DNA of 64,000 bases, from the NCBI RefSeq assembly GCF_000225505.1, contig NZ_BACI01000050.1, positions 124,001 through 188,000 of the forward strand, given 5' to 3'. This DNA is from Gordonia alkanivorans NBRC 16433 (GTDB lineage Bacteria; Actinomycetota; Actinomycetes; Mycobacteriales; Mycobacteriaceae). The notes beneath the pieces are model-generated. The model saw only the letters and a list, made by a program, of their open reading frames with translations. It had not been told where the DNA came from and did not search any database. Position numbers and translations under genes: made by a program. Of the stretch, positions 30,546 to 59,476 are shown piece by piece; position 1 is the stretch's first letter, and each line of letters begins with the position of its first letter.

Positions 30546-32294
30546 TCAGGCTCCTGTCTGGGACGTCGGGGTGGTGGCCGACGCCTTGGCGGCGATGTCG
30601 GTGGCAGCGAGGTAGCCGAAGACGATCGCCGGGCCGATGGTGGCGCCGGGACCGGCGTAGGTGTGGCCCATCACCGGTGCGCTGGTGTTGCCCGCGGCGT
30701 ACAGGCCCTCGATGACCGATCCGTCGGCGCGAAGCGCGCGACCCGCGGCGTCGGCGTTGATGCCGCCCTTGGTGCCGAGGTCGCCGGGGACCATCTTGAC
30801 CGCGTAGAACGGGCCCTTGCTGACCTCGCCGAGGCTCGGGTTGGGCTTGTTGGTGATGTCACCGTAGTAGTGGTCGTAACCGCTTGCGCCACGGCCGAAA
30901 TCCTCGTCGACGCCGGCGCGGGCGAAGCCGTTGAATCGCTCGGTGGTGGCGACGAGCGACTCGGCGGGAACGCCGATCTTCTCCGCGAGTGCAGAGATGC
31001 TGTCCGCCTTCACGACCACGCCCGACTCATACCACTTCTTCGGGAGCGGCTGTCGCGCATTGATTCCGGCGAAGAGGTAGCGGTTACGGCAGCGCTGATC
31101 GAAGATCAGCCACGACGGCACGTTCTCGCCCGGACCCTCGCCGTGACCGAACTCGCCGCCGTACATCTGGTGCACCGCTTCGACATACGGGAGTGACTCG
31201 TTCATGTAGCGCTTGCCGCGCAAGTTCACGATGAAGGTGCCGGGGACCGACCGCTCGGACAGCGCGAACCACGGTCCGCGCGGCAGCGGGATCGTCGGAC
31301 CCCACCAGGCGTCGTCCATGAGGGAGACCGCGGCGCCGATCTTGAGCCCGGCGTTGATGCCGTCGCCGGTGTTGCTGGGTGCACCGGTGGTCCAGTCGGA
31401 ACCGATCGGTTCGCGCTGGTACTTCTTGCGCATCTCCTCGTTGTGCTCGAAGCCGCCGCAGGCGAGGATCACGCCCTGGCGCGCGTGGATCTCGAACTGC
31501 TTGCCCTCGGACTCCGCGATCACGCCGACGACCCGGTCGTCGGCGGTGACGAGGTCGACGAGGCCGGTGTTGAGGCGGACCGGGACCCCGGCCTCGCGCA
31601 CGCCGATGAGCAGCTCGGCGGCCAGTGCCGCGCCCATCGCGATCAGCTTCTTGCCGCGGCTGCGGGCCCAGAAGAACCGGCTGCCGACCTTCGCCATGCG
31701 CAGCGGCCCACGCCAGTGGCGGAGACCGGTGTTGAGCCAGCGGTAGTCGGACTGCAGCACGACCATGTTGAGCGGGGCCTTGGTGTACTGCGGGTGCAGC
31801 GTCTTGAGGTCGTCCCCGAGGCGGCGCGCGTCGAACGGCCGCGGCTCGATCGACCGGCCGCCGAGACGACCGCCCGGCGCCTCGGGGTAGTAGTCCGAGT
31901 AGTTCTTCACCCACTCGAGGTCGAGGGGTGCGTGCTCCAGCAGGAAGTCGAGGGCCTCGGGTCCGCGATCGATGTAGGCGTCGATGCGGTCGGCCGGGGC
32001 GTGCTCGCCGATGATCGCGTGCACGTACTCGCGGGCCTTCTCCGGCGTATCGCTGACGCCGTCGCGCTTCAGCACCGAGTTGTTGGGGATCCACACGCCG
32101 CCGCCGGACCGGGAGGTCGAACCTCCCCAGTAGGGCGACTTCTCGATCAGGACGGTCTTGAGGCCCTTGCGGGCCGCGGTGATCGCGGCGGCCAGACCCG
32201 CACCACCTGCGCCGACGACGATCACGTCGTAGGTCTCGGGTTCGGTGTTGTACCGATCTGGGCTGGTCTGTTGTGGATCGGACGAGCCGGCCAT
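30546..32294 (-). CDS. kstD: 3-ketosteroid delta-1-dehydrogenase KstD
   Basis: A 582-residue FAD flavoprotein that introduces the 1,2 double bond into ring A, allowing ring B to open after 9-alpha-hydroxylation. Seen: FAD motif VIVVGAGGAGLAAAITAARKG near residue 25, GGSTSRSGGGVWIPNN, GAAVSLMDDAWWGPTIPLP near residue 322, and the C-terminal LGTKGGINADAAGRAL and NTSAPVMGHTYAGPGATIGP. ATG 32294 has AAGGGGA upstream. First gene of the kstD-chsH3 operon. Confidence 0.95.
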   Translation of the reverse strand: MAGSSDPQQTSPDRYNTEPETYDVIVVGAGGAGLAAAITAARKGLKTVLIEKSPYWGGSTSRSGGGVWIPNNSVLKRDGVSDTPEKAREYVHAIIGEHAPADRIDAYIDRGPEALDFLLEHAPLDLEWVKNYSDYYPEAPGGRLGGRSIEPRPFDARRLGDDLKTLHPQYTKAPLNMVVLQSDYRWLNTGLRHWRGPLRMAKVGSRFFWARSRGKKLIAMGAALAAELLIGVREAGVPVRLNTGLVDLVTADDRVVGVIAESEGKQFEIHARQGVILACGGFEHNEEMRKKYQREPIGSDWTTGAPSNTGDGINAGLKIGAAVSLMDDAWWGPTIPLPRGPWFALSERSVPGTFIVNLRGKRYMNESLPYVEAVHQMYGGEFGHGEGPGENVPSWLIFDQRCRNRYLFAGINARQPLPKKWYESGVVVKADSISALAEKIGVPAESLVATTERFNGFARAGVDEDFGRGASGYDHYYGDITNKPNPSLGEVSKGPFYAVKMVPGDLGTKGGINADAAGRALRADGSVIEGLYAAGNTSAPVMGHTYAGPGATIGPAIVFGYLAATDIAAKASATTPTSQTGA

Positions 32295-32317: not shown

Positions 32318-32331
32318 TGGAACGTGTTCTA
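32318..32331. promoter_or_regulatory. KstR operator 1, kstD/patatin intergenic region
   Basis: TGGAACGTGTTCTA matches all fixed positions of TNNAACNNGTTNNA and lies 24 bases ahead of the kstD start. Confidence 0.9.
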
Positions 32332-32338
32332 CCTGAAT

Positions 32339-32352
32339 TAGAACACGTTACA
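32339..32352. promoter_or_regulatory. KstR operator 2, kstD/patatin intergenic region
   Basis: TAGAACACGTTACA matches all fixed positions of TNNAACNNGTTNNA. Its centre is 21 bases from that of the first site, two helical turns, suggesting that two repressor dimers bind the same DNA face. It is 151 bases from the divergent patatin gene. Confidence 0.85.
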
Positions 32353-32502: not shown

Positions 32503-35500
32503 GTGACCATCGACGACAGGACAACGTTCGACGAATCGCCCGCGCCGGTTCCCGCGGTCGAAGAGCCGAGGAGAATCCCGACCCCGACCCGAAAAACCCT
32601 GCGTGTGGCCCTGGCGATGCGCGGTGGGGTCAGTATGGCGGTGTGGATCGGGGGTGCGGTCGCCGAACTGGACCTGTTGCGCCGCGTCAGCCGGGGCGCG
32701 GAGCGGTGCGCGTGTGCCCAGTGGCCTCCGCGGTCTCCACAGTGCGTCGACTCAGCGACGCCCCGGCAGCGTCGTGCGCACCTGTATCGGCGCAGGCTCG
32801 CCGAGGCGGGCTATACCGACGTCGAGTTCGATATCCTCGCCGGCGCGAGCGCGGGCGGCCTCAATGCGATGCTGTTCGCGCTGACGCAGACCTATGGTGT
32901 GCCCACGGACGATCTCGTCAGCAGGCTGTGGAGCGAGCAAGGAGACCTCTGGGAACTCGTCCGCGAGCCGGGCTGGGGGCCGGTGCCGTCGGTGCTGAAG
33001 GGGAACGAACGCCTGCTCGACGTCGCCGAGCAGGCGGTGCTCAGGATCGCCGGCCTCGGGCGGAATTCGGGTACGCCGAAGTATGCCGACTCCGAGATCG
33101 CCGCCATCGATTCGGTGACCGTCGAACTGGCCGCGACGCTGCTGACCGATGGAAAGCAACCGGAGCTGGGGAACCGTGCGTCGTTCTCGTTCACACGACG
33201 CCCCGGTGGTCTCACCTCGAGGTACTCGACCGTTCCGGGACCGGAGACGGTCGAGGTCAGGATGGAACTGCGTCGGATGGCTCTGGCCGCCCGCGCCACG
33301 TCGTCCTTTCCCGGCGCCTTCGAGCCCGCCGACATCTATTCGGCGACCGACGGGTCCACCTGTGGCTGGAAGCAGTTGTCGCGGAAAGGCAAAGAGTCAC
33401 CGCGCGACTGTGTTCCGAATATGGTCGCGGTCTTCCCCTTTGCCCGGGCGGGAGCGGCGAGTTCGCCCGCGGTGCGACCCGGCGACGAATTCCGGGTCGT
33501 CGACGGGGGTGTCGTCGACAACATCCCGATCGATCGCGCGCTCCGCGCAGTGCAGCGGGCCTCGGCGTCGAGTCCCTCGCGGCGCGTGCTGGTCTACCTC
33601 GATCCTCAGCCTCCGCAGCCGCCGGTCCCGAGGAAGGCGGTGGTCGCCGGGAACCGCGATTCCGGCGCGGGCTGGCTGTCGGTGATCATGGGCGCCAAGG
33701 GACTTCAGAAACGTGTCGAGAGCGCCGACGACGAGATCGATCAGATCCGGGAGCACAACGACGCCGCGCTCGAGGCCGCTTCCCGGCAGCGGGAACTCGC
33801 TGCGACCCTGTCGGCGGCGCTCGGGAACGGCCGCAAGGTCGAGAGGGTGGATGTCGCGACGTACATCCGCTCCCGGTCCGGAATCGACGTCCAACGGCTC
33901 AGCAATCTCGTCGTCGATCCGACCGCATACCTGTGCCGGCCGCCCCACCGGTCGCGGATCTTCCCGACGGTGAACCGCCTCGACGCCCTGTGCGTCGAGC
34001 GAGCGGTGCGTGAAGCGTACGGGGAGATCGCCGGGGGAGCGCATCCGGACGCCTCGGCGGTGTTCGACGCCGGTGACGTGGGAGCCGCCGTCGCCGGTAT
34101 CCGCCTGTTCATCGCGTGGGTGCAGCAGCTGCAGGCGATGAGTACCGGATCGACTGTCGCCGAACCGGTTCCGCTCCGTCGACTGAAGAAGGGGTTGTAC
34201 CGGTGCCTCACGGTGATGATCGAGGCGCGGCGTCTCACCGTCGATATGGCTCTCCTCCTGAAGGATTCGACCCGTGTCGACTGCGACGAGGTCGTGTCCC
34301 GGATCATCGGGGGGATCGAGTCGCAAGGACGCCTGGAGATCAATTCGATCGTGGACGTCGCGATGACACCCGCCGGGGTCACGGAGATCGCGGAGGCAAC
34401 GTTCTACCAGGTGCTTGCTCCGGTTGAGGGTGCGCCGGGAGTGCAGCTCGGCGAGGCGAAGGGCGACGCGCTGCACTCGGTGTGGGCGACGCTGTCGCAG
34501 TACCGAACCCGCATCCTCGAGTGGACGGTGAACCCCGCCGAATCACCGGGGCCGGCGCTCGAACGCTGGAACAACTCGATCTTCCACCTGCTGCACGACG
34601 GGCTCGGTGAAGACGAGGGGGACGCCGCCCCGGAGAACGTCGTCTTCGACATCGTCCGCCTGGTTGGCGAGGCGGCGATCCCCGGTACCGCGGCCACGAT
34701 CGGCTTTCATCGGATCACCGGGGACACGAAACCCAGACTGAAGTTCGACGGCCATGAGGACGGGACTCCGCCGGCGGGCGACGTATCGCTCGCGGAGGTT
34801 CGGAAAGCAGCCATCGCCGCACAACTGCAGAAGTGGATTCGCGGCGACGTCGATCCCGGATCGCTGAACGCCGACGCCGTCGCGACGCAGATCGATGCCA
34901 CGGCGAATCTCGCGCGGGCGGACACCCGCCTGGCCGGCACCGGGCTGGCGCGGTTCGCCGGCTTCCTCAGTCCTGAGTGGCGCGAGAACGATTGGTACTG
35001 GGGACGACTGGATGCTGCCGCAGGAGTGGTGGATCTGCTGTCCACGACGTCGGAGTCGACGACCGTCGTCTCCCGGGAGGACGACGAACAACTCATCACC
35101 GAGCTGCAGGAAGAGGTGACGAGGGAGACCACGCCGAGCGGCGTGTCCGCGGGAGCACACATCGCTGCGACGGGCGGGCAGACCCTGTCGCATCTGGACG
35201 TGCGCTACGTGTTCGGACTGGTCTCCCGGATCCTGCCGCTGGTGTTGCGGGCCCTGTGGCCGGCGGAGAGATCCGGCGGCACCGCGAAGGGCGTCGCCGT
35301 CCGCGTGGGGCTCGTCGCCGCCCGTCCGCTGCTGCCGATCATCTCTCTCGCCCTCGACCGTGTGCGGCTGGTCTCCGCCGTCGTGGTGGCCGTCGCAGCC
35401 GCTGCGCTCCTCGGCACGGGGACCACGGCGCCGGGAGTCCAGGCGACTTTCGTGGGCATCACCGCAGTGCTTGGTGGCCTGTTGATCTGGCGTGCGATCG

Positions 35501-36204
35501 AGGCGCGCCGTCGGTGGGGGATGGTCCGTGAGTTCTTCACCGCACGGGCCCCGGAACGGAAACCGGAAACCGACGAGTTGTGGACGACGACGCTGAACGG
35601 AAGTGAGAAGTACGCGAAGAGGTTCGCCATCGGAGCCTTTGTCGCCGGAGCTTTCGCATTGGTCGTTGCCGCCCTGTGGATCTGGTGGCGCAGCAACGCA
35701 GTGCCCGCCCTCGGTGCTGAATCTCTGGTCATGACGGTCCTGCTGTTCGCGGGCCTCGTCGGCTGGTGCAACCTGGGCGCTCAGACGGTGCGCGCCAGGC
35801 CGAGACGGCGGAAAGAGGTCCGCATCGGTCTGATCACTGCCGTGGTGGTCATCTACCTGCTGATCTTCGGCGTCACCTGGATGTCCATCGAGGACATGGC
35901 ATCCGGAAAGAAGTCGTCAGATCTTGCCCAGCTGTTCACCCAGCCGACCGCAGGCGAAGCGGCTGGAATCGCCGCGGCGACGGTGCTTCTGCTGACCTTG
36001 CTGTCGCTGTGGGGGTGGGCCCGATGGGGCGACATCGCCGGATGCGCCGTGGGACTTGCCGTGATCGCGGGAATCACCCAGTGGGCGCTCGAGACCTTCT
36101 TCTCGGAATCACCGCTGTTGGATCTTCTGCCGACGGCCGTCTGGGCGGTCGGCGTCGGGATCGCCCTTCAGTTCGTCCACCCGGTCGGGCGAGACAAGCT
36201 CTAG
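32503..36204 (+). CDS. Very large patatin-like protein with C-terminal membrane region (DUF3376-type)
   Basis: A 1233-residue protein. The N-terminal patatin-like lipid acyl hydrolase core shows an oxyanion segment ALAMRGGVSMAVWIGGAVAEL near residue 37, nucleophile motif GASAGGLN near residue 114, and the DGG of the Ser-Asp dyad (RVVDGGVVDNIPIDRAL) near residue 333. The middle (about 400-900) is helical and unrecognised, resembling actinobacterial DUF3376. Residues about 955-1230 contain roughly eight hydrophobic helices. GTG 32503 has GCGAGG five bases ahead. It is divergent from kstD, and its stop overlaps the next gene's stop. A phospholipase or sterol-ester hydrolase role is possible but unproven. 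Confidence 0.85.
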   Translation: MTIDDRTTFDESPAPVPAVEEPRRIPTPTRKTLRVALAMRGGVSMAVWIGGAVAELDLLRRVSRGAERCACAQWPPRSPQCVDSATPRQRRAHLYRRRLAEAGYTDVEFDILAGASAGGLNAMLFALTQTYGVPTDDLVSRLWSEQGDLWELVREPGWGPVPSVLKGNERLLDVAEQAVLRIAGLGRNSGTPKYADSEIAAIDSVTVELAATLLTDGKQPELGNRASFSFTRRPGGLTSRYSTVPGPETVEVRMELRRMALAARATSSFPGAFEPADIYSATDGSTCGWKQLSRKGKESPRDCVPNMVAVFPFARAGAASSPAVRPGDEFRVVDGGVVDNIPIDRALRAVQRASASSPSRRVLVYLDPQPPQPPVPRKAVVAGNRDSGAGWLSVIMGAKGLQKRVESADDEIDQIREHNDAALEAASRQRELAATLSAALGNGRKVERVDVATYIRSRSGIDVQRLSNLVVDPTAYLCRPPHRSRIFPTVNRLDALCVERAVREAYGEIAGGAHPDASAVFDAGDVGAAVAGIRLFIAWVQQLQAMSTGSTVAEPVPLRRLKKGLYRCLTVMIEARRLTVDMALLLKDSTRVDCDEVVSRIIGGIESQGRLEINSIVDVAMTPAGVTEIAEATFYQVLAPVEGAPGVQLGEAKGDALHSVWATLSQYRTRILEWTVNPAESPGPALERWNNSIFHLLHDGLGEDEGDAAPENVVFDIVRLVGEAAIPGTAATIGFHRITGDTKPRLKFDGHEDGTPPAGDVSLAEVRKAAIAAQLQKWIRGDVDPGSLNADAVATQIDATANLARADTRLAGTGLARFAGFLSPEWRENDWYWGRLDAAAGVVDLLSTTSESTTVVSREDDEQLITELQEEVTRETTPSGVSAGAHIAATGGQTLSHLDVRYVFGLVSRILPLVLRALWPAERSGGTAKGVAVRVGLVAARPLLPIISLALDRVRLVSAVVVAVAAAALLGTGTTAPGVQATFVGITAVLGGLLIWRAIEARRRWGMVREFFTARAPERKPETDELWTTTLNGSEKYAKRFAIGAFVAGAFALVVAALWIWWRSNAVPALGAESLVMTVLLFAGLVGWCNLGAQTVRARPRRRKEVRIGLITAVVVIYLLIFGVTWMSIEDMASGKKSSDLAQLFTQPTAGEAAGIAAATVLLLTLLSLWGWARWGDIAGCAVGLAVIAGITQWALETFFSESPLLDLLPTAVWAVGVGIALQFVHPVGRDKL

Positions 36205-37265
36205 GACGGGTCCGGTGAGCCCAGGCCGACGATCAGGTCCCACGGATCAGTACCGGCTTCGAGGATCTCTCCGGCCAGCGATGTGGCCCAATCCTGCTCG
36301 GTGCCATACCGATCCGTCCAGGTCCACAAGGCGGAGGTGAATCGGCCCAGGCTGTGCTCCGAGGTGAAGCCAATCGCGCCGTGGATCTGGTGTCCGGCGG
36401 AGGCGACCTCGGTGGCGTAGTGCGAGGTCACGACCTTTGCCGCCGCGATGGCGGCGTGGGCCGCGACCGGGTCATTAGAAGCGGCTTCGGTGGCGGCTCG
36501 TGCGGCCGTCTCCATGAGCGTTGTCTGGGCGGCCATCTCGGCCAGTCGCTGCTGGATGGCCTGGAACTTCGCCAGGGGCCGCCCGAACTGGGTGCGTTCG
36601 GACGCGTAACGGACCGTGCGTTCGCGTACCGCGCGCGCGGCCGCGGCCAGGGCGACGGCGTACGCGAGAGCTCCGCGTCGACGCAGGTCCTCGATGTCGA
36701 CGGGGGAGTGCGCCGAGAACGTCGCCTCGGCATCGCGGAAGACGATGTCGCCGTACGAGACTCCCCGAAGGTCGGCCCCGTTCGTGATCTCGACGCCGGG
36801 AGCTTCGCGTCCGACGACGGTGATGACCGGGCCGTCGGGCCCGGTCATCAGGACCACCACGGTATCCACATCGTCGACATGCGCCACGCCGGTCACGCTG
36901 CCCGACAGCAGGATTCGATCTCCGTCGGTGCGGATGGTCCCGTCGTCGATCACGGCAACCGTCGCAGTGGTGCCTTCGAGTGGAAGTCCGACGCTGCCCG
37001 CCAGCCACGACGCGAGGAGTGCGTGTTCGAGGTACGGGGTCACGGCCCCGGCTTCGGCGAGCGAATCCAGAACGGCGAGTGCATCACCGAGTTCGCCACC
37101 GTGTCCACCGGCCTCCTCGGGGACATCGACGCCGGTGAACCCGGCTTCGACGACGGCGCCCCACACGGCCGCGTCGGGTGCGGTGATCGGGGTCTGCATG
37201 TCGACCGGGATGCGGGCGAGCATCGCGGTGAGGGCCGCCCGGAGTTCGGTTGCGAGGTCGCTCAT
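36201..37265 (-). CDS. Acyl-CoA dehydrogenase, partner-subunit type
   Basis: A 354-residue acyl-CoA dehydrogenase-family protein with a divergent N-terminal half and a canonical C-terminal helical domain: RTQFGRPLAKFQAIQQRLAEMA near residue 222 and HQIHGAIGFTSEHSLGRFTSALW near residue 304. Such subunits often pair with a catalytic partner in alpha2beta2 enzymes. It overlaps the previous dehydrogenase by four bases (ATGA) and its TAG overlaps that of the patatin gene. Third gene of the operon transcribed from the KstR sites at 39299-39329. Confidence 0.9.
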   Translation of the reverse strand: MSDLATELRAALTAMLARIPVDMQTPITAPDAAVWGAVVEAGFTGVDVPEEAGGHGGELGDALAVLDSLAEAGAVTPYLEHALLASWLAGSVGLPLEGTTATVAVIDDGTIRTDGDRILLSGSVTGVAHVDDVDTVVVLMTGPDGPVITVVGREAPGVEITNGADLRGVSYGDIVFRDAEATFSAHSPVDIEDLRRRGALAYAVALAAAARAVRERTVRYASERTQFGRPLAKFQAIQQRLAEMAAQTTLMETAARAATEAASNDPVAAHAAIAAAKVVTSHYATEVASAGHQIHGAIGFTSEHSLGRFTSALWTWTDRYGTEQDWATSLAGEILEAGTDPWDLIVGLGSPDPS

Positions 37266-38413
37266 CGTATCCCCATTCCGCGCGCGACGATTCCGCGCAG
37301 GATCTCGTTGGTTCCGCCGCGAAGCGTGAAAGCAGGTGTGTGCAGAACGGATTGGGCCAGGAGCCGTTCGAGATGCGTGCCGCCCAAACGGCGCGGCACG
37401 ATGCCGGAGGCATCGCGGACGGCCGTCACCAGATCGCCCTCGAACGTCGAACCGAGATCCTTGACCATCGCGGCGAGCACATCGGGTTTGCCGCCGGCCG
37501 CCAGTTCGCGGGCAACCTGCAGCGACATCTGACGCAGCGCCCACGCCTGTGCGGTGAGCTTTCCCAGCGCCGCCCGCTGTTGCGGGGTGGCTCCCTGCTC
37601 GCGGAGATGATCGGTCCATGCGCGTAGGAGTGGCAGCGTGCTGAGGTAGCGCTCTGGTCCGGAACGCTCGAATGCCAACTCGCTCATCACCTGTTGCCAG
37701 CCGTGTCCGCGGCGGCCGAGTAGCGCCGACGAGTCCACCACCGCGTCGTGGAAGATGACCTCGTTGAAGTGCGACTGGCCGTCGATGCTCCGGATCGGCC
37801 GGATCTCGATGTCCGGGTGCGGGAGGTCGATGACGAACTGCGAGAGTCCCTGCTGCCGATCGTCGGCCGTACCGTCGGTACGTGCAAGCAGAACCATCGC
37901 GTGGGCGATGTGGGCGCCGGTGGTCCACACCTTCGTTCCGCTGATCGTCCACGAATCGCCGTTGTCCGTCGCGCGCGTCCGCACGCCGGCGAGGTCGGAA
38001 CCCGCGTCGGGCTCACTCATGCCGATCGCGAAGTAGACGGTGCCGGCGGAGATCCCGGGGATGTAGCGGCGTCGCTGTTCCTCGGTCCCGTTGGCCAGGA
38101 TGCCCGGTGCCATCTGCCGGTCGGCGATCCAGTGCGCGGCGACGGGCGCGCCGTGCGCCAGCATCTCCTCGGTGATGACGAATCGTTCGACCGGTGTGCG
38201 TCCCCGTCCGCCGTACTCGGTGGGCATCGTCATGCCGAGCCACCCGCGCTCGCCGAGCCGACGGCTGAAGTCGAGGTCGAAACCCCTCATCCAGCTGTCG
38301 ACGTCGGGAGTGAAGGCACCCGAATCGATTTCGGTCCGCAGGAACTCGCGGATCTCGGCGCGCAGCGCCGCCAGGGATTCGACGCGCAGCGTCGCGAGCT
38401 GATCGTCGGTCAC
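37262..38413 (-). CDS. Acyl-CoA dehydrogenase, catalytic-subunit type
   Basis: A 383-residue protein with the typical fold: GWLGMTMPTEYGGRGRTPVER near residue 58, GMSEPDAGSDLAGVRTRA near residue 130, SGTKVWTTGAHIAHAMVLLA near residue 157, and C-terminal LRGGTNEILRGIVARGMGI. GTG 38413 overlaps the stop of the crotonase gene (GTGA). With the next gene it probably forms a heteromeric dehydrogenase acting on a steroid-derived acyl-CoA. It does not clearly match FadE26-FadE29 or FadE30-FadE34. Confidence 0.9.
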   Translation of the reverse strand: MTDDQLATLRVESLAALRAEIREFLRTEIDSGAFTPDVDSWMRGFDLDFSRRLGERGWLGMTMPTEYGGRGRTPVERFVITEEMLAHGAPVAAHWIADRQMAPGILANGTEEQRRRYIPGISAGTVYFAIGMSEPDAGSDLAGVRTRATDNGDSWTISGTKVWTTGAHIAHAMVLLARTDGTADDRQQGLSQFVIDLPHPDIEIRPIRSIDGQSHFNEVIFHDAVVDSSALLGRRGHGWQQVMSELAFERSGPERYLSTLPLLRAWTDHLREQGATPQQRAALGKLTAQAWALRQMSLQVARELAAGGKPDVLAAMVKDLGSTFEGDLVTAVRDASGIVPRRLGGTHLERLLAQSVLHTPAFTLRGGTNEILRGIVARGMGIR

Positions 38414-39225
38414 GACCGGGCAGGTCCCCGTGACGACCAGTTCTGGCCCTTACGGGCCATCGACCACATCTGGGTGCCGCGTTCGATCTCGATCGCCGAA
38501 TCCCACGTCACCGTCGGCGGACCGAGCTCCAGGCGCACGCTCGACATGACCTTGCGGGTCAGCTCGGGGTCGCGGGCGGCGGGACCGGTGAGGCCGTCGA
38601 CGATCGCAGGGAGCTCGTCAACCGGGGCTGCGGCGTACGCGAGCCCCTGCGCGACCGCCTCGTCGCCGGTGAGTGACTGGCCGCAGGCCGCGAGTGCGAT
38701 CGTGTTGGCGCGTCCGACCGCGCGGTTCAGCAGGGTCAGGTGACCGCCGCCGGGATGAATACCGCGGGCGAGGAAGCCGCTGTCCAGAACCGCGTCGGGA
38801 GTGGTGACGAGCAGGTCGACGGCCAGGGCGAGGTTGAGGCCGGCACCGACCGCACCGCCCACTACGACGCCGATGGTGGGAACCGGAAGGGAACCGACAC
38901 GGACGAACGCCGCGTACACCGCCGACAGCTGCCTCACCGACTCCGGCGCCGCCGGATCGGCCGACGCGCCGGCGAGGATGCGGGTGTCGGCACCGCTGCA
39001 GAAGTAGGAGCCGGCGGCGTCGACGACCACCGCGCCGATGGTCTCGCTGGCGGCCACCTGGTCGCAGAACCGCTCGATCGACGCGGCCATCTCCAGGGTG
39101 ATCGCGTTCTTGCGGCGCGGGTTGTTGAGTGTCAGCCTCCCGACGCCGTTCTCGAAGGACGTGAGAATGGGATCGCCGGTTGCCTCGGCGTCTGAAGGGG
39201 TGGAGGTTGGGGAGTCGGAGCTCAT
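38410..39225 (-). CDS. Enoyl-CoA hydratase/isomerase in a KstR-controlled operon
   Basis: A 271-residue crotonase. Seen: LTLNNPRRKNAITLEMAASI near residue 31, oxyanion motif FCSGADTRILAG near residue 74, GGAVGAGLNLALAVDLLVTT near residue 121, and ARGIHPGGGHLTLLNRAVG. The first catalytic Glu position (GAGLNLAL) is Asn and the second region lacks Glu, so classical hydration is doubtful. ATG 39225 is chosen because upstream in-frame starts run into the KstR operator; the ribosome-binding site is weak. First gene of the leftward operon divergent from hsaE. Confidence 0.85.
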   Translation of the reverse strand: MSSDSPTSTPSDAEATGDPILTSFENGVGRLTLNNPRRKNAITLEMAASIERFCDQVAASETIGAVVVDAAGSYFCSGADTRILAGASADPAAPESVRQLSAVYAAFVRVGSLPVPTIGVVVGGAVGAGLNLALAVDLLVTTPDAVLDSGFLARGIHPGGGHLTLLNRAVGRANTIALAACGQSLTGDEAVAQGLAYAAAPVDELPAIVDGLTGPAARDPELTRKVMSSVRLELGPPTVTWDSAIEIERGTQMWSMARKGQNWSSRGPARS

Positions 39226-39298: not shown

Positions 39299-39312
39299 TG
39301 GAACATGTTCTA
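39299..39312. promoter_or_regulatory. KstR operator 1, crotonase/hsaE intergenic region
   Basis: TGGAACATGTTCTA matches all fixed positions of TNNAACNNGTTNNA. It is 74 bases from the crotonase start and 38 bases from hsaE. Confidence 0.9.
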
Positions 39313-39315
39313 AAC

Positions 39316-39329
39316 TAGAACACGTTCAC
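39316..39329. promoter_or_regulatory. KstR operator 2 (weaker), crotonase/hsaE intergenic region
   Basis: TAGAACACGTTCAC keeps seven of the eight fixed positions of TNNAACNNGTTNNA (last base C instead of A). Its centre is 17 bases from the first site. Confidence 0.65.
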
Positions 39330-39349: not shown

Positions 39350-40138
39350 ATGGCGGTTGACCAGCAGGTACGCGAACAGATCGCGGCCGAGCTCTGGCAG
39401 GCGGAGGTCTCGGCGACGGCCATCGACCGTCCCACGGACTCCCATCCGGACCTCGACGTCGTCGATGCCTACGAGATCCAGCTGATCAACATCCGCAAGC
39501 GACTCGAGGCCGGGGCCAGGGTCGCCGGGCACAAGGTCGGCCTCGCTTCCGAGGCGATGCAGAAGATGATGGGCGTCGACGAGCCCGACTACGGACACCT
39601 CCTCGACGAGATGCAGTACTTCGAGGAGACCCCCATCGACGCGAAGAAGCTGTGCTTCCCCCGGGTCGAGGTGGAGGTCGGCTTCATCCTCGGCGAGGAC
39701 CTGCCCGGCGAGGGGTGCACCAACGAAGACGTCATCGCCGCGGTCGAATGGGTGGTGCCCTCGATCGAGCTCATCGACTCCCGCATCAAGGACTGGAAGA
39801 TCACGCTGTGCGACACCATCGCCGACAACGCGTCGTCGTGCGGCTGGATTCTCGGACAGCAACGTGTCCCGATCGGCGAGATCGACACCGGGGACATCGA
39901 CGCGGTCCTGCATCGTAACGGGGAGATCGTGGCGAAGGGCAATTCGTCTGCGGTGCTGGGCCATCCGCTCAATGCGGTGTCGTGGCTGGCACGCAAGGTC
40001 GACAGCTTCGGGGTCCGTCTCCGCAAGGGGGACGTGATCCTGCCCGGCACGGCGACGCGGGCGATCGACATCTCCTCGGGTGACCACTTCGTGGCCGAAT
40101 TCGCCGGCCTCGGTTCGGTCACCCTGGATTTCACCTGA
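39350..40138 (+). CDS. hsaE: 2-hydroxypenta-2,4-dienoate hydratase HsaE
   Basis: A 262-residue hydratase of the MhpD/HpcG family that converts the dienoate released from ring A into 4-hydroxy-2-oxo acid. Seen: INIRKRLEAGARVAGHKVGL near residue 45, EPDYGHLLDEM near residue 80, KLCFPRVEVEVGFILGEDL with metal-binding acidic residues near residue 103, and PLNAVSWLARKVDSFGVRL. ATG 39350 follows GAAGGTGAGG. First gene of hsaE-hsaG-hsaF, the same order as in Mycobacterium. Confidence 0.95.
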   Translation: MAVDQQVREQIAAELWQAEVSATAIDRPTDSHPDLDVVDAYEIQLINIRKRLEAGARVAGHKVGLASEAMQKMMGVDEPDYGHLLDEMQYFEETPIDAKKLCFPRVEVEVGFILGEDLPGEGCTNEDVIAAVEWVVPSIELIDSRIKDWKITLCDTIADNASSCGWILGQQRVPIGEIDTGDIDAVLHRNGEIVAKGNSSAVLGHPLNAVSWLARKVDSFGVRLRKGDVILPGTATRAIDISSGDHFVAEFAGLGSVTLDFT

Positions 40139-40189: not shown

Positions 40190-41095
40190 GTGGCGGCAAA
40201 ACTGACCGCGGCGATCATCGGATCGGGCAACATCGGCACCGATCTGATGTACAAGCTGGAGCGTTCGGAGGTCATCGAACCCCGATGGATGGTCGGCATC
40301 GACCCGGACTCGGAGGGCATGAAGCGCGCCGCCGACCGCGGACTCATCACGATGAGCGGTGGTGCGGACGAACTCCTCGGGTCGCAGGACAAGCCCGATC
40401 TCATCTTCGAGGCCACCTCGGCCTACGTGCACCGTGAGTACGCCCCGAAGTACGAGGCCGCCGGTATCACCGCGGTGGACCTCACCCCGGCGGCGGTCGG
40501 GCCCGCCGTGGTCCCGCCCGCCAACCTGCGTGAACACCTCGACGCCCCGAACACCAACATGATCACCTGCGGCGGGCAGGCGACCATCCCGATGGTGCAC
40601 GCGGTCTCGTCGGTCGTGCCGGTCCCGTACGCGGAGATCGTCGCGTCGGTCGCCTCGGTCTCGGCCGGTCCGGGCACGCGCGCCAACATCGACGAGTTCA
40701 CCCGCACCACCTCCGCCGGCGTCGAGTCGATCGGTGGCGCGCAGCGCGGTAAGGCGATCATCATCCTCAACCCGGCGGACCCGCCGATGATCATGCGCGA
40801 CACCATCTTCTGCGCCATCCCCGAAGACGCCGACACCGACGCCATCGCGGAATCGATCCACCGGCGAGAGAAGGAGATCCAGCAGTACGTGCCGGGCTAC
40901 CGTCTGCTGCAGGACCCGCAGTTCGACCCGCCGAGCGTCCTGAACGGCGGCTATGCGCGGGTGTCGATCTTCGTGGAGGTCGAGGGTGCGGGCGACTTCC
41001 TGCCGCCCTACGCCGGCAACCTGGACATCATGACCGCCGCCGCGACCAAGGTCGGCGAAGAACTCGCAAAGAAGAAGCTGGGAGTCCCCGCATGA
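40190..41095 (+). CDS. hsaG: Acylating acetaldehyde/propionaldehyde dehydrogenase HsaG
   Basis: A 301-residue CoA-acylating aldehyde dehydrogenase of the DmpF/BphJ type, forming propionyl-CoA or acetyl-CoA from the aldehyde channelled from HsaF. Seen: NAD-binding [17 protein letters not shown] at the N-terminus, catalytic Cys in [19 protein letters not shown] near residue 127, and C-terminal [24 protein letters not shown] 40190 has GAGGAGGG at 40177-40184. Its stop overlaps the hsaF start. Confidence 0.96.
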
Positions 41096-42186
41096 GCACC
41101 AACGTGGTCACCACCCCGCGCGACCCGAAGCTGATGGCGAACGCGCGCAAGTACTCCGACACCCTCGACATCCGCATCACCGATTCGTCTCTGCGGGACG
41201 GCAGCCATCACAAGCGGCACCAGTTCACCGAAGAGGAGGTGCGCGCGATCGTCGGTGGCCTCGACGAGGCCGGTGTGCCGGTCATCGAGGTGACCCACGG
41301 CGACGGCCTCGGCGGCTCGTCGTTCAACTACGGGTTCTCCAAAACCCCTGAGCAGCAGCTGATCAAAGCTGCGGCCGAGACCGCGAAGCGGGCCAAGATC
41401 GCCTTCCTCATGCTGCCGGGTCTGGGCACCAAGGACGACATCCGCGCCGCGCAGGACAACGGCGGCCAGATCTGCCGCATCGCCACCCACTGCACCGAGG
41501 CCGACGTCTCCATCCAGCACTTCGGTCTCGCACGGGATCTCGGACTCGAAACCGTCGGCTTCCTGATGATGAGCCACAGCCAGCCGCCGGAGGTCATCGC
41601 CAAGCAGGCTCGCATCATGGCCGACGCCGGATGTCAGTGCGTCTACGTCGTCGACTCCGCGGGTGCGCTCGTCCTCGAGGACGTCACCGTCCGCGTCGAG
41701 GCGCTCGTCGCCGAACTCGGCAACGACGCCCAGGTCGGGTTCCACGGACACGAGAACCTCGACATCGCGATCGCCAACTCGGTCAACGCCATCCGTGCGG
41801 GCGCCCAGCAGATCGACGGCTCCATCCGACGCTTCGGCGCCGGCGCGGGCAACACGCCCACCGAGGCCTTCGTCGGTGTGTGCGACAAGCTCGGGATCAC
41901 CACCGGGGTCGACTTCATGAAGATCGCCGACGTCGCACAGGACGTCGTCCGACCGGCCATGCCGACGGAGTGCCTGGTGGACCGCCCGGCGATGATGATG
42001 GGTTACGCCGGTTGTTACAGCTCGTTCCTCAAGCACGCAGAGGGCCACGCCGAGCGCTACGGCGTGTCGGCCGCCGAGATCCTGCTCGAGGCCGGCGCGC
42101 GCAAACTGGTCGGCGGTCAGGAGGACCAGCTCATCGACATCGCGCTGGAGTTGAAGAAGAAGCAGGACGCGAACGCCGGCGTCTGA
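41092..42186 (+). CDS. hsaF: 4-hydroxy-2-oxoacid aldolase HsaF
   Basis: A 364-residue DRE-TIM-barrel aldolase that splits the hydroxy-oxo acid into pyruvate and an aldehyde passed to HsaG. Seen: [19 protein letters not shown] (metal and Arg motif) near residue 24, [36 protein letters not shown] near residue 217 (His ligands), and [18 protein letters not shown]. The length and the [12 protein letters not shown] wording match HsaF rather than plain BphI. It converges with the LysR gene, seven bases apart. Confidence 0.96.
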
Positions 42187-47267: not shown

Positions 47268-48500
47268 TCAGACCTGCGCCTTCTCCGAGGAATCCGCCGC
47301 GCCGTCCGGCGACTGCTCGGCCGCTGCCTTCTCGGCCTCTTGGCGTCGGAGGTTCTCCTGGATCTCGGCGTTCCAGCTCTCGACTGCCTTGGAGGTGTCG
47401 ATCTCGTACTCGAACCGGCCGGTCATCTCGTCGGTGACGTCGGCCTTGTCGACATAGAACTGCTCGTACCAGCGACGGAGCTGGTACACCGGGCCGTCCT
47501 CCTCGACGAGGAGCGGATTGTCGATGCGGGTCTTGTTCTTCCAGATCTCGACGTCCTGCAGGAAGCCGACCTCGACACCCGCGCTGATCTTGGTGGCCAT
47601 CTTCGAGGCCTGCTCGGCGGTGAGGCCCTCGGGAACCTTCGCCATGACGCCGTACATCAGGACGAACGAATTCTCGTCGATCGGGTAGTGGCAGTTGGTC
47701 AGGATGGTCTCGACCGCGAAGCCGCCGTAGTACTGGACCATCGGGTTCAGCATGTAAGACGGACCGTAGTAAGCGGCGATCGATTCGAGCCGGCTGTCGC
47801 CGTAGTTGGTGCCCAGCGTGACGTCGGGGCGCCCATGCGAATTCATGTACTGCGCGGCGATCTCGCCCTCGAAGACATTCTTGAAGTAATCCGGCAGCGC
47901 GAAATGCACATAGAAGAAATGCGCCATGTCGACGACGTTGTCGATGATCTCGCGGCAGTTCGAGCCCTCGATCACGATGCGGTTCCAGGTCCAGTCGGTC
48001 CACTCCTCGGACCCGACCTCGGCCAGCTCCGGGATGATGACCTCTTCCGGCGGCGGGTTGCCCTCGGGGTCGTTGTAGACGAAGACCTGGCCGTTGCGGA
48101 CCATCGACGGCCACGAGCGGGTCTTGGCGAGCTTGGGGTTGCGCTTGGCGTACGGGACGCCGGCGCAGCGACCGCTGCCCTTCCACAGCCAGCCGTGGAA
48201 CGGGCAGGCGACGTTGTCGCCGGACAGCTTGCCCTGCGACAGGTCACCGCCCATGTGGCGGCAGTAGGCGTCGAGGATGTTCAGCTCGCCCTTGGTGTCG
48301 ACCCAGACGACGAGCTTGGTGCCGAAGATCTGCACGGAGTGCGGTTGGCCGTCGTCGAACTCGCCGAACAGGCCCAGGCAGTGCCACCCGCGGGCGAACC
48401 GGGTGGGCGGCGCGCCGGTGTCGATCTCCCGGATACCCACCTCGGCGTCGTTGGACGAACCGGGGGTGTTCGGGGTCATCGTGTCGGGTGCTGGTGACAT
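47268..48500 (-). CDS. kshA: 3-ketosteroid 9-alpha-hydroxylase oxygenase KshA
   Basis: A 410-residue Rieske non-haem iron oxygenase that hydroxylates C9 of 3-ketosteroids; with KstD this breaks ring B. Seen: Rieske ligands CRHMGG near residue 80 and CPFHGW near residue 99, and the mononuclear iron region NVVDMAHFFYVHFALPD near residue 190. The C-terminal tail is Glu/Ala-rich. The reductase KshB is not in this window. It is divergent from hsaA with KstR sites between them. Confidence 0.96.
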   Translation of the reverse strand: MSPAPDTMTPNTPGSSNDAEVGIREIDTGAPPTRFARGWHCLGLFGEFDDGQPHSVQIFGTKLVVWVDTKGELNILDAYCRHMGGDLSQGKLSGDNVACPFHGWLWKGSGRCAGVPYAKRNPKLAKTRSWPSMVRNGQVFVYNDPEGNPPPEEVIIPELAEVGSEEWTDWTWNRIVIEGSNCREIIDNVVDMAHFFYVHFALPDYFKNVFEGEIAAQYMNSHGRPDVTLGTNYGDSRLESIAAYYGPSYMLNPMVQYYGGFAVETILTNCHYPIDENSFVLMYGVMAKVPEGLTAEQASKMATKISAGVEVGFLQDVEIWKNKTRIDNPLLVEEDGPVYQLRRWYEQFYVDKADVTDEMTGRFEYEIDTSKAVESWNAEIQENLRRQEAEKAAAEQSPDGAADSSEKAQV

Positions 48501-48726: not shown

Positions 48727-50912
<2,186 letters not shown>

Positions 50913-55313: not shown

Positions 55314-56411
55314 CTATCGCAGGCGCGCAGCAGCTTCGGCGACCGCGAGATGCGGGGCGCCCAGCAACTGCGACGACGCCTGTGCGCGCTTGAAGTACAG
55401 CTGGATGTCGTGTTCCCAGGTGATGCCGATGCCGCCGTGCAACTGGATGGCCTCGCCGGTGATTCGCCGGAAGGCATCCGAGCAGTACACGTGGGCGGCG
55501 AGGGCCAGTTCGGACGCTTCGGGGTCGTCGCCGGCGACCGCGGCGACCGCCGCACGCGAGATCGAACGAGCGGTCTCGACGAGAACGTACATGTCGGCCA
55601 TGCGGTGCTTCAGCGCCTGGAACGAGCCGATGGTGCGGCCGAACTGCTTGCGCGACTTGGTGTACTCGACGGTGAGGTCGAGGGCGCGCTGGGCGCCGCC
55701 GACCTGCTCGGCGGAGAGCATCGCCCACCCGAGCGTCCGCAGGCGTGCGGCGAGGTCGGCCGGTGCGGGGATCGCGGTGGACACGACCTCGTCGAACCGC
55801 ACCGAGGACAACGCACGCGTCGGATCGAGAAGAGGCAACGGCGACACCGTCACACCGGCCGCATCAGCGGCGACCGAGTGCATCGTCACGTGCTCACCGG
55901 GCCCCGATGCCAATACCAGGAAGGTGTCCGCGGACTCGGCATCGACGACGAAGTGTGCGGTGCCGGAGAGCAATCCGGCGTCGGCGTGCACGCCGGGGGT
56001 GTCCCAGCCGCGTTCGCCGGCCCAGCACAGGGCGGCCGTCTGCTCACCGGCGGCCAGCGCGGGAAGCAGCTGCGACGCGGTGTCGTCGTCCTGCGCCAGC
56101 AGGATCGCGCCGGTCGCCAGCACCGAAGACCCGAAGGCGGGCACCGGACTCAGGGTCGCACCGAGTTCTTCGAGGACAGCGGCCAACTCGGCCCACGACG
56201 CCCCCGCACCGCCGGCGTCCTCCGGGATGGGAAGTGCCGCCACCCCGATCTCGGTGCACAGGGTCTCCCACAGGCCGCGGTCGACGCGTCCGGTCGACGC
56301 CATGGCCGTGCGCACCGAGGCGGTGTCTCCCCGGCGTCGCAGCAGATCACGCACCGCCTCGGCCAGTGCCTCACGTTCCTCGGCGGAGATCGCGAGCGTC
56401 TCGGTGGTCAC
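55314..56411 (-). CDS. fadE33: Acyl-CoA dehydrogenase FadE33-like
   Basis: A 365-residue acyl-CoA dehydrogenase-family subunit. Seen: RKQFGRTIGSFQALKHRMADMYV near residue 234 and QLHGGIGITWEHDIQLYFKRAQ near residue 322; the first half is divergent. Position after fadE31 and fadE32 matches Rv3562-Rv3563-Rv3564 of M. tuberculosis, which belong to the KstR2 regulon for rings C/D. GTG 56411 overlaps the fadE32 stop. Confidence 0.88.
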   Translation of the reverse strand: MTTETLAISAEEREALAEAVRDLLRRRGDTASVRTAMASTGRVDRGLWETLCTEIGVAALPIPEDAGGAGASWAELAAVLEELGATLSPVPAFGSSVLATGAILLAQDDDTASQLLPALAAGEQTAALCWAGERGWDTPGVHADAGLLSGTAHFVVDAESADTFLVLASGPGEHVTMHSVAADAAGVTVSPLPLLDPTRALSSVRFDEVVSTAIPAPADLAARLRTLGWAMLSAEQVGGAQRALDLTVEYTKSRKQFGRTIGSFQALKHRMADMYVLVETARSISRAAVAAVAGDDPEASELALAAHVYCSDAFRRITGEAIQLHGGIGITWEHDIQLYFKRAQASSQLLGAPHLAVAEAAARLR

Positions 56412-57376
56412 AGTGTCTCCAGGATGCGTCGACGATGGACTGCGGGCGAGCCCCAGGCGGACAGGAGCGCGCGGGTCTTGGTGATGTACAGCGAGATGTC
56501 GTGTTCGGCGGTGTAACCGATCGCCCCGAGCACCTGCAGCGAGCGGCGGGCCGAAAGGTGCGCGGCGTCGGCCGCCGCGACCTTGGCCGCCGACACGTCG
56601 CGCGACACGTTGGTGTCCTCGGGCACCTGGCCGTCGATGCCGAGTGCTGCGGCATGGACCAGGGGACGGGCCATCTCGAGTGCGATGGCCACATCGGCGA
56701 GGTGGTGCTTCACGGCCTGGAAGGACCCGATGGGCCGGCCGAACTGCTTGCGGGTCTGTGCATATTCGCTGGCGAGGGCGAGCATCGCCTGACCGAGTCC
56801 GAGGAGCTCGGCTGCGGTGGCGAGTGCCCCGGCGTCGACGGCGTCGGACGGGTCGATGCCGGTGGCCAGCGTCTTGTCCGGAGCCACCCGTGACAGTGTG
56901 CGGGTGGTGTCCACCGAGGGTTCGGTGCTGAGCACGGTGGCCGTCGACAGGACGCCGTCCTCCACGACGTACACGTCGGCGGAATCGACATCGGGCGCGA
57001 GCGGCTGCAGCGGGGCGATGGCACAGGTCGCCAGCCGCCCCTCGGCGAGATCCTGGAGGGGGCCGTTCACGTCCGCGTCTCGCAACAGGATCGGCAGGAC
57101 GGCAACGCTTTCCACGATCGGTCCGGGAGCGCAGTGGCGTCCGAGCTGTTCGACGGCGACGATCATCTCGACGGCGCCGGCGCTGCTGCCGCCGTGGGAT
57201 TCGTCGATGAGGAGGCCGCTGATCCCGGCGTCGGCGAGCTGGGAGTAGACCTTGGTGACCGCGGTCCGGTCACCGGCCGCCCATGCTCTCGCCGCGGCGG
57301 GCATGTCGGCCTTGCCGAGCATGGCGTCGACGGTGGCGGCGAGGTCCGTGTGGATGTCGGAGAGTTGGAAGTCCAT
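56408..57376 (-). CDS. fadE32: Acyl-CoA dehydrogenase FadE32-like
   Basis: A 322-residue subunit, close to the short length of FadE32 (about 320). Seen: LLIDESHGGSSAGAVEMIVAVEQLG near residue 57, RKQFGRPIGSFQAVKHHLADVAI near residue 214, and LGAIGYTAEHDISLYITKTRAL near residue 284. Starts seven bases after the fadE31 stop. In the known system FadE31 and FadE32 cooperate in ring C/D degradation. Confidence 0.88.
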   Translation of the reverse strand: MDFQLSDIHTDLAATVDAMLGKADMPAAARAWAAGDRTAVTKVYSQLADAGISGLLIDESHGGSSAGAVEMIVAVEQLGRHCAPGPIVESVAVLPILLRDADVNGPLQDLAEGRLATCAIAPLQPLAPDVDSADVYVVEDGVLSTATVLSTEPSVDTTRTLSRVAPDKTLATGIDPSDAVDAGALATAAELLGLGQAMLALASEYAQTRKQFGRPIGSFQAVKHHLADVAIALEMARPLVHAAALGIDGQVPEDTNVSRDVSAAKVAAADAAHLSARRSLQVLGAIGYTAEHDISLYITKTRALLSAWGSPAVHRRRILETL

Positions 57377-57382
57377 GTGGTA

Positions 57383-58549
57383 TCAGCGATCTCCGCGAGG
57401 AAGGCCGAGGAGTCGCTCGGCGATGACATTGCGTTGGATCTCGTTGGTGCCGGCGTAGATCGGGCCGGACAGGGAGAACAGGTAGCCGTCCATCCAGGCG
57501 TCGTCGAGTTCGGCGTCCGGTCCCTGTAGATCGAGGGCGGTCTCGTGGGCGGCGATGTCCCACTGCGACCAGAAGACCTTGTTGATCGAGGACTCCATGC
57601 CGAGCTGTCCGCCTGCGGAGAGCCGGCTCACGGTGTGCCAGGTCGACAACTCGTAGGCGCGCGCCCCGATCCAGGCGTCGGCGACCCGCGCATCGGCGTT
57701 GGCCGTCGAGGGCACCTCGTCGCGCTTCGACCGCCACAGGTCGACGAGGCGGTCGGTGGTGGCGAGGAAGCGGCCCGGTGCTCGCAGCGAGAGTCCGCGC
57801 TCGTTGGCGGCCGTGCTCATCGCCACCCGCCAGCCGTTGTCCACCTCGCCGATGACCCCGGACTCGCCGGGGTTCGCGGGGTCGTCGGGCACGAAGACGT
57901 TCTCCAGGAACAGCTCTGCGAAACCCGCCTCGCCGTCGAGCTGCGCGATGGGACGGACGGTGACGCCCTCGGCACGTAGGTCGAACATGAAGTAGGTGAG
58001 GCCCCTGTGTCGCTGGGCCTCCTTGTCGGTGCGGAAGAGGCCGAAGGCCCGGTCGGCGAAACTCGACCGCGAACTCCACGTCTTCTGCCCGTTCAGCAGC
58101 CAGCCGCCGTCGGTGCGGACCGCGGTCGAACGGAGCGAGGCGAGGTCGCTGCCCGCCTCCGGCTCGCTCCACGCCTGGCCCCAGATGTCGTCGGCCCGGG
58201 CCATCCGCGGCATGATGCGTTCCAGCTGAGCGGGATTCGCGTGCTCGAAGAGGGTCGGGGCGAGCAGGAAGATGCCGTTCTGGCTCACCCGGCCCGGTGC
58301 GCCCGAGCGGTAGTACTCCTCCTCGAAGATCACCCAGTGGAGGAGGGGAGCGTCGCGGCCGCCGTACTCCTCGGGCCAGCTGACGACCGACATGCGGTCG
58401 GCGGCCATCGTGCGCTCCCACTCGCGGTGGGCCTCGAAGCCCTCCGCGGTGTCCATGGACGGGAGGGGTTCGCGCGGAACGTGTTCGGCCAGCCAGGAGC
58501 GGACCTCGGCCCGGAACTGCTCGGCCGCGTCGTCGAAGAGCAGGTCCAT
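57383..58549 (-). CDS. fadE31: Acyl-CoA dehydrogenase FadE31-like
   Basis: A 388-residue catalytic-type acyl-CoA dehydrogenase. Seen: SWPEEYGGRDAPLLHWVIFEEEYYRSGAPGR-like sequence near residue 57 (typical of FadE31), AWSEPEAGSDLASLRSTAV near residue 131, NGQKTWSSRSSFADRAFGLF, and YAGTNEIQRNVIAERLLGLPRG at the end. One base separates it from the crotonase stop, so it is in the same operon. Confidence 0.92.
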   Translation of the reverse strand: MDLLFDDAAEQFRAEVRSWLAEHVPREPLPSMDTAEGFEAHREWERTMAADRMSVVSWPEEYGGRDAPLLHWVIFEEEYYRSGAPGRVSQNGIFLLAPTLFEHANPAQLERIMPRMARADDIWGQAWSEPEAGSDLASLRSTAVRTDGGWLLNGQKTWSSRSSFADRAFGLFRTDKEAQRHRGLTYFMFDLRAEGVTVRPIAQLDGEAGFAELFLENVFVPDDPANPGESGVIGEVDNGWRVAMSTAANERGLSLRAPGRFLATTDRLVDLWRSKRDEVPSTANADARVADAWIGARAYELSTWHTVSRLSAGGQLGMESSINKVFWSQWDIAAHETALDLQGPDAELDDAWMDGYLFSLSGPIYAGTNEIQRNVIAERLLGLPRGDR

Positions 58550-58550
58550 G

Positions 58551-59459
58551 TCAGCTACCCGATCCTGCCGAGGCCTTCATCGACTTGGCGTCCATGCCGC
58601 CGAGCGAATCGCCGCCCGACGCCTCGGCATTGGCCGAGTGGGCGAAGTGGTGCCAGCCGAAGACCGAGTCCATCGAGTTGCGGAGTCCCATCTGGTCCTC
58701 GCAGATGTTGACGGCCTTCTTGCTGAGGAACAACCCCTGCATCGGCATCGAGACCGCCTTCTCAACGATCTCGTTCACCTTGGTCTCGAGCCCGTCGCGC
58801 GGCACGACGTGGTTGACCATGCCCCAGTCGGCTGCCTGCGTGGCGGTGAAACGCTCGCCGGTGAACAGGATCTCCTTCGCGCGGCGGGTGCCGAGGGCAT
58901 ATGCGTGCGCGAAGTACTCGACGCCCGGGATGCCCATGCGTGCCACCGGGTCGGAGAAGAACGCATCGTCGGAGGCGACGATGAAGTCGCAGATCCAGGC
59001 CAGCATCAGGCCGCCGGCGATGCAGGCGCCGTGGACCTGGGCGATGAGCGGCTTGGGGATGTCGCGCCAACGGCGGCACATCCCCATGTACACCTCCATC
59101 TCGCGGGCGAGGCGCTGATCGGCACCGGTCTTGTCGGTGTGATCCCAGTGCAGGACGGCGGCGTTCTCGTAGTAGGTGTCGAAGTCGCGCTCCGGGGTGC
59201 CGATGTCGTGTCCGGCCGAGAAGTGCTTGCCGTTCGCGCGCAGGACGATGACCTTCACGGTCGTGTCCTCGACGGCCTTGCGGAAGGCGGCGTCGAGCGA
59301 ATACGTCATGACCGAGTTCTGTGCATTGCGGTACTCGGGACGGTTCAGTGTCACGTACGCGACGGCACCTTCGGGCCCGCCGACCTCGTAGGCGACCGGA
59401 GAGGTGTCCGGGCCGAGATCGTCGGGGCCGAGTGCGGGCGGGATGGCGGCATCACTCAT
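58551..59459 (-). CDS. Enoyl-CoA hydratase heading the fadE31-33 operon
   Basis: A 302-residue crotonase, longer than EchA20 (about 247). Seen: YVTLNRPEYRNAQNSVMTYSL, oxyanion motif HFSAGHDIGTPERDFDTYYEN near residue 79, HGACIAGGLMLAWICDFIVA near residue 144, DPVARMGIPGVEYFAHAYAL, and a C-terminal QMGLRNSMDSVFGWHHFAH. The YYENAAVLHWDH wording resembles EchA13-type proteins rather than EchA20. ATG 59459 is used; GTG 59465 is possible. The KstR2 operator lies just upstream. Confidence 0.85.
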   Translation of the reverse strand: MSDAAIPPALGPDDLGPDTSPVAYEVGGPEGAVAYVTLNRPEYRNAQNSVMTYSLDAAFRKAVEDTTVKVIVLRANGKHFSAGHDIGTPERDFDTYYENAAVLHWDHTDKTGADQRLAREMEVYMGMCRRWRDIPKPLIAQVHGACIAGGLMLAWICDFIVASDDAFFSDPVARMGIPGVEYFAHAYALGTRRAKEILFTGERFTATQAADWGMVNHVVPRDGLETKVNEIVEKAVSMPMQGLFLSKKAVNICEDQMGLRNSMDSVFGWHHFAHSANAEASGGDSLGGMDAKSMKASAGSGS

Positions 59460-59476
59460 GCCCACGAGCCTAACCT

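Follow-up and report, generated by a model that had tools for sequence, protein, structure and literature searches.

The window analysed here is a stretch of 64,000 nucleotides of Gordonia alkanivorans NBRC 16433 (contig NZ_BACI01000050.1; genome of 5.07 Mb in 131 contigs). Within it, three genes for a crotonase-fold protein and two acyl-coenzyme A (acyl-CoA) dehydrogenases, alpha and beta, stand back to back with hsaEGF. This trio is probably the core that remains of a second steroid cluster, a reduced remnant captured by the regulator KstR. Its substrate is more likely to be an acyl-CoA derived from the steroid nucleus or its rings than a sterol side chain, a view to which we assign a probability slightly above one half (about 0.55). 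A search for this operon among open-licence full texts found no literature on it. The three genes are:

38410-39225, minus strand: crotonase-fold protein, 271 residues, ATG to TGA, without both usual catalytic Glu residues
37262-38413, minus strand: acyl-CoA dehydrogenase alpha, 383 residues, GTG to TGA, predicted catalytic subunit with E249
36201-37265, minus strand: acyl-CoA dehydrogenase beta, 354 residues, ATG to TAG, without the catalytic Glu and with a QFG motif

Successive reading frames, crotonase and alpha, then alpha and beta, overlap by four bases, and 124 bases separate the operon from the divergent hsaEGF. The two acyl-CoA dehydrogenases (ACADs) divide critical residues between them. 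E249 aligns with the Glu that FadE26, FadE29 and FadE34C have, in nine of nine alphas, and the same column holds A, S or T in nine of nine betas; the QFG motif is found in beta and not in alpha, just as it is found in FadE27 and FadE28 and not in FadE26 and FadE29. With adjacent genes, a Glu base in alpha only and QFG in beta only, alpha and beta pair, judged by these residues, a catalytic with a non-catalytic protein as FadE26-27 do, and would be expected to assemble as subunits of one enzyme. Among solved structures alpha matches Tcur3483 (7.1e-39) and ChsE4 (4x28_A, 2.4e-36) best, and Tcur3481 is the second-best solved match of beta.

In a tree of 43 rows, in which the tool flagged long branches among own-genome paralogues, alpha and its relatives form one clade (30 of the rows, support 100/100) that excludes FadE26, FadE29 and FadE34C as well as ten further ACADs of the same genome. 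Alpha is only about 29-33% identical to the three named proteins, and its candidacy as an orthologue of FadE26, FadE29 or FadE34 is rejected on the separate clade. It lies outside every own-genome ACAD in the tree, none of which carries a FadE30-33 name. The FadE names of these references are assumed from position and from the M. tuberculosis gene order; the FadE26 so named matches 4x28_A (ChsE4) at 1.1e-193. A structure model of alpha falls in the ACAD fold and matches many ACADs (8hk0 at 38.6, Tcur3483 at 37.5, ChsE4 at 35.1), and the models of alpha and crotonase did not tell functions apart. Homologues of alpha (E 1e-70) are present in 86 of 118 Mycobacterium genomes at 43-62% identity, mostly 50-55%. 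Ten such Mycobacterium regions with alpha/beta homologues of about 50-55% (L199-L208) include six with a kshA-like gene within 18 kb, and none of the ten could be named M. tuberculosis. The EchA13-FadE17-FadE18 genes of that species are a candidate match to the trio; fadE17/18 are listed in PMC10843139 as members of the Mce3R regulon.

N131 and F151 of the crotonase occupy, by alignment, the Glu positions of 4jyl_A, so that the two catalytic Glu residues of a canonical enoyl-CoA hydratase are not found; N131, F151, H157 and H162 are invariant in all 34 crotonase relatives of at least 55% identity. The model has the usual fold (predicted local distance difference test, pLDDT, 79), and the 50 crotonases listed as its matches have Z of 24.9-27.9. 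An earlier note, made from the window alone, had described three genes with four-base overlaps facing away from hsaEGF, a catalytic and a non-catalytic dehydrogenase subunit, and a crotonase without the usual catalytic Glu residues, and coordinates, residue split and alignment bear it out on each. It had also seen no clear FadE fit for either dehydrogenase and had proposed a phylogeny; the tree and the identities set alpha apart from FadE26, FadE29 and FadE34.

The closest relatives of the trio that lie off the cholesterol cluster (about 64% identity and up) keep company with genes for KstD-like, KshA, HsaA, HsaC, CoA-transferase and Baeyer-Villiger monooxygenase (BVMO) proteins, and are not accompanied by side-chain genes. 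These type-2 clusters of Gordonia, Rhodococcus and Nocardia also carry genes for a short-chain dehydrogenase/reductase (SDR), IclR, GntR and an esterase, often with BVMO and P450, and their KshA, HsaA and HsaC are about 56%, 40% and 43% identical to those of the window. Among 22 type-2 loci, which were hand-picked, mostly for holding type-2 genes (one, L093, holds none of these), CoA-transferase is found in 20, SDR in 20, KshA, IclR and GntR in 19 each, HsaA and esterase in 17 each, HsaC and KstD-like in 15 each, and BVMO in 13. Twenty other, more distant relatives have CoA-transferase (15), GntR (12), crotonase (11), esterase (9), HsaA2 (5), BVMO (1) and KshA2 (0); flanks of at most 10 kb were covered for most loci compared, and absences are partial to that extent. 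The window's trio and the type-2 cluster of the R. phenolicus kind share orthologous crotonase, alpha and beta. Beside the window's trio there are no type-2 KshA, HsaA, HsaC, CoA-transferase or BVMO genes, the window holding only cholesterol-cluster versions.

Distribution of the trio is patchy. It occurs in 17 of 49 Gordonia genomes, this one included: beta (E 1e-45) is in 16 of the 48 others, and in 3 of 32 genomes of the order's other families at 41-42%; alpha of at least 64% identity is in the same 17 genomes as beta, and 15 others have a 51-55% homologue only. The closest named relative of alpha is that of G. amicalis (92%). hsaE accompanies the trio in 17 of 17 genomes and is found at no less than 81% in 36 of 49 (Fisher p 0.0017, kinship ignored). 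One alpha homologue, in Prescottella equi (G084, L117), has a TGA inside the match.

The content of the site between kstD and hsaE differs by degrees among Gordonia genomes. The genes that define the site in the window are:

39350-40138, plus strand: hsaE, divergent partner of the trio, hydratase family, under curated cut-offs
40190-41095, plus strand: hsaG, acylating aldehyde dehydrogenase, above cut-off
41092-42186, plus strand: hsaF, 4-hydroxy-2-oxovalerate aldolase, above cut-off
30546-32294, minus strand: kstD (3-oxosteroid 1-dehydrogenase), which bounds the site at its other end in related genomes

The names hsaE, hsaG and hsaF are assigned from gene order and family. In ten Gordonia loci (L218-L227) kstD and hsaE are adjacent without the trio. 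Five more (L213-L217) have KshA, HsaA, HsaC and BVMO homologues by hsaE, and the stretch read there contains neither alpha nor crotonase. At the other extreme, in G017, G002 and G039 a stretch of 39-41 kb from a kstD-type operator to hsaE contains the trio together with its type-2 neighbours (kstD itself is seen in G017 only, the one of the three read throughout). Between these lie G030 (L212), which retains GntR, CoA-transferase, trio, IclR and BVMO; G006 and G010 (L060, L061), which retain GntR, CoA-transferase and trio; the bare trio of the window, G021, G018 (a G. amicalis contig), G012, G047 and G022; and G034, G001 and G028, which have alpha and beta only, with no crotonase relative elsewhere in their genomes at E 1e-30. 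In G020 the cluster is distant from hsaE, and in G015 trio and hsaE are on separate contigs. HsaA2 of at least 65% identity is found in none of the 11 genomes of the hsaE-adjacent, bare type versus all five of the longer type (G017, G002, G039, G020, G030). These graded states, from about 40 kb to a bare trio, are the reason for considering the trio probably a reduced, KstR-captured remnant; repeated reduction of the cluster would be the simplest reading, not the only one. In the G021 locus (L051) alpha and hsaE are each in two frames within 2 kb, perhaps through assembly errors; it was excluded from alignments and trees for these split frames and included in operator scans, neighbour counts and genome counts.

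KstR-type operators were scanned for with the motif TnnAACnnGTTnnA, as given in PMC1995591. Exact matches number six in the 64 kb, against 0.15 expected, a count reached in none of 100 shuffles; one-mismatch matches number 13 against 4.5. All six precede steroid genes or a regulator-like neighbour of these. The sites (no strand assigned) are:

39299-39312: predicted KstR-type operator, exact match to TnnAACnnGTTnnA
39316-39329: second predicted KstR-type operator, one mismatch
32318-32352: predicted KstR-type operator pair of kstD, exact matches at 32318 and 32339, before 30546-32294
16759: exact motif, between a TetR gene and a fused FadE34-type ACAD gene
19067: exact motif, before a FadE28-type gene
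48553: exact motif, between a kshA-like gene (47268-48500) and hsaA (48727-49911)

The pair between the divergent genes lies 20-50 bases from the start of hsaE and about 74-104 from that of the crotonase gene; KstR-type sites do, then, stand upstream of the trio, and the same sites are the operator of hsaE. An exact motif lies between operon and hsaE in 10 of 11 hsaE-adjacent loci (L060 has a one-mismatch site only), and all 11 also keep the kstD operators on the side away from hsaE, one box having a single mismatch in some of them. Where the trio is away from hsaE, the stretch before the crotonase gene holds an exact motif in none of 10 loci and a one-mismatch site in one (L059); in G030 hsaE has an operator pair and the crotonase gene does not. 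From this pattern the operators would belong to hsaE and kstD, the trio having ended up between them, and the trio's tie to KstR looks acquired because the exact motif is missing from all ten loci in which the trio is not next to hsaE.

The trio is under purifying selection. Relative to G018, the ratio of non-synonymous to synonymous substitution (dN/dS) is 0.13 for crotonase, 0.09 for alpha and 0.30 for beta; over five comparisons crotonase and alpha give 0.09-0.26, beta 0.23-0.42 and hsaE 0.03-0.11. Genes that are kept alone and are not obviously duplicated by the cholesterol pathway suggest a reaction of their own.

The following course of events would account for these findings. A second cluster, with CoA-transferase, esterase, SDR, KstD-like, IclR, KshA, HsaA and HsaC genes and often BVMO and P450, sits, or sat, in Gordonia between kstD and hsaEGF; once genes redundant with the cholesterol pathway had gone, the trio would have been left beside the hsaE operators and so have come under KstR control. 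Alpha and beta would form a heteromeric ACAD of the steroid type, in which alpha provides the base and beta probably completes the flavin adenine dinucleotide site, and the crotonase would act on the ACAD product or on a compound close to it. In the home cluster, acyl-CoA chemistry is the part of the trio and the CoA-transferase, with genes for BVMO, esterase and ring opening alongside, which makes a nucleus-derived acid the likelier substrate. The job would then most likely be to dehydrogenate, and next to hydrate or convert by some other crotonase reaction, a CoA thioester whose carboxylate is formed on opening the nucleus, such as a ring-borne propanoyl chain (of the methylhexahydroindanedione propanoate (HIP) type, or Baeyer-Villiger-derived) rather than a C8, C5 or C3 side chain. 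The earlier note's proposal of an additional module for acyl-CoA oxidation is supported, the locus being a steroid one and alpha no orthologue of FadE26, FadE29 or FadE34 or of ten further ACADs of the genome; of the substrates that it offered, a ring fragment fits best, and side-chain duty is less supported by the neighbours of the closest relatives.

A number of observations weigh against a captured remnant acting on the nucleus, some of them given with the alternatives below. The hsaE-adjacent state entails four changes on the alpha+beta tree, at least three on starred branches, so that the direction of change is an inference. In G015 the trio is not by hsaE but close to where the cholesterol cluster has kshA and hsaA, and it has no KstR motif. 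The hsaE loci without the trio have the exact motif in all eight scanned, so that the operators may serve hsaE alone; the paired operators that the earlier note called shared are present (one exact, one with a mismatch), and the sharing is a positional statement. For divergent operons generally, a passage of PMC7807495 warns that operators may serve one side only. The genome has no close type-2 CoA-transferase (the best is at 44%), and it has on another contig (C106, L162, 68000-87900) a further ring-degradation-like cluster without a trio, comprising an HsaA-like gene (59% to type-2 HsaA), KstD-like and HsaE/G/F-like genes and a pair of ACADs. KshA, HsaA and HsaC are not found in the 41 kb read of plasmid pRHL1, which is taken up below.

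Were the trio instead to dehydrogenate and hydrate side chains, those of bile acids (C5/C3) or of C24-branched plant sterols, the match of alpha to Tcur3483 would be natural, the Tcur3481-Tcur3483 pair preferring C3 over C5 side chains according to PMC8399759. FadE28/29-type and FadE34-type (fused ACAD) genes lie in the same window, and some of the distant alphas (54-57%) have an Ltp2-type thiolase (L140, 75%) or a FadE28-type gene (L141, 59%) nearby. The low identity of alpha to FadE26, FadE29 and FadE34C and the A/B-ring and BVMO genes that accompany its closest relatives off the cholesterol cluster make this unlikely. A dehydrogenase for a small branched acid of the isobutyryl-CoA kind, and not for a steroid skeleton, is suggested by the Pseudonocardia plasmid pBCI1-2 (L209/L076), where an aromatic, non-steroid cluster includes alpha (64%), beta (45%) and a CoA-transferase as well as a ring-hydroxylating dioxygenase, an extradiol dioxygenase, an amidohydrolase and dmp-type genes. 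We take that cluster to be cumate-like, for a pathway releasing isobutyrate. The steroid linkage of the closest relatives and the residue split of steroid ACADs make such a role less likely still. Patchiness, loss of the crotonase gene in G034, G001 and G028, and the rapid evolution of beta (up to 0.42 against 0.03-0.11 for hsaE) would all be expected of a second-cluster leftover with no present role; open frames, preserved four-base overlaps and dN/dS of 0.09-0.42 throughout the five comparisons leave this the least probable of the three.

Going further than the captured remnant, the family could mark a new actinobacterial route for a Baeyer-Villiger-derived nucleus acid, alongside that of HIP/EchA20 and made up of BVMO, an esterase or lactonase, CoA-transferase, ACAD alpha/beta and crotonase. 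Gordonia would have trimmed it repeatedly to a KstR-rewired dehydrogenase core for a HIP-type propanoyl-CoA, with a crotonase of new active-site chemistry. This is speculation that we hold to be rather unlikely. More generally, a catabolic module seems to have switched regulator through the loss of its neighbours, with intermediate states in living species.

Two further features of the window merit mention. A gene of 1233 residues (32503-36204), called patatin-like from its own sequence, is convergent on beta, the two stop codons lying within one CTAG (36201-36204); it is not at the corresponding place in G018. Another ACAD operon (55314-59465) encodes two small ACADs alongside a PRK08290-type crotonase and a pimC-like alpha. 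Homologues of this alpha (65-67%) lie beside a trio-family alpha in five Actinomadura loci (L129, L136, L140, L143, L157). Orthology of the trio to this operon is rejected: the alphas are 26% identical, and that of 55314-59465 is found at 84% or more in 48 of 49 Gordonia genomes versus 17 of 49 for the trio.

Among known systems, ChsE4-ChsE5 (FadE26-27) and Tcur3481-Tcur3483 are like the trio in adjacent alpha/beta genes, residue split and fold; unlike FadE26, alpha is in a separate clade and only about 29% identical to the FadE26 of its own genome. Type-2 clusters have a BVMO close to 4AOS, which we take to be the steroid monooxygenase of R. rhodochrous (for R. phenolicus, E 2e-225, with 65% identity over the first 206 aligned residues); in contrast, no BVMO lies beside the window's trio. 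The R. rhodochrous steroid monooxygenase converts progesterone to testosterone acetate, as stated in PMC12239570. By published description (PMC5962712, PMC7807495), the M. smegmatis C-19+ cluster and Nocardioides simplex cluster D are like the type-2 cluster in being second KstD/KshA gene sets off the KstR regulon. Also close is a cluster on pRHL1 of Rhodococcus jostii RHA1 (L074), with the whole trio (crotonase 71%, alpha 77%, beta 53%) and its four-base overlaps, next to a BVMO 80% identical to the R. phenolicus one and to IclR, SDR, CoA-transferase, GntR, esterase, KstD-like and HsaE/F/G homologues; unlike the window's trio, it does not stand under a KstR motif. It is presumably the pRHL1 cluster that PMC4810484 describes as A/B-ring only and of unknown function. 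The trio provides a handle on steroid clusters without known function, this one included: it is the part that some Gordonia retain after the remainder has been lost.

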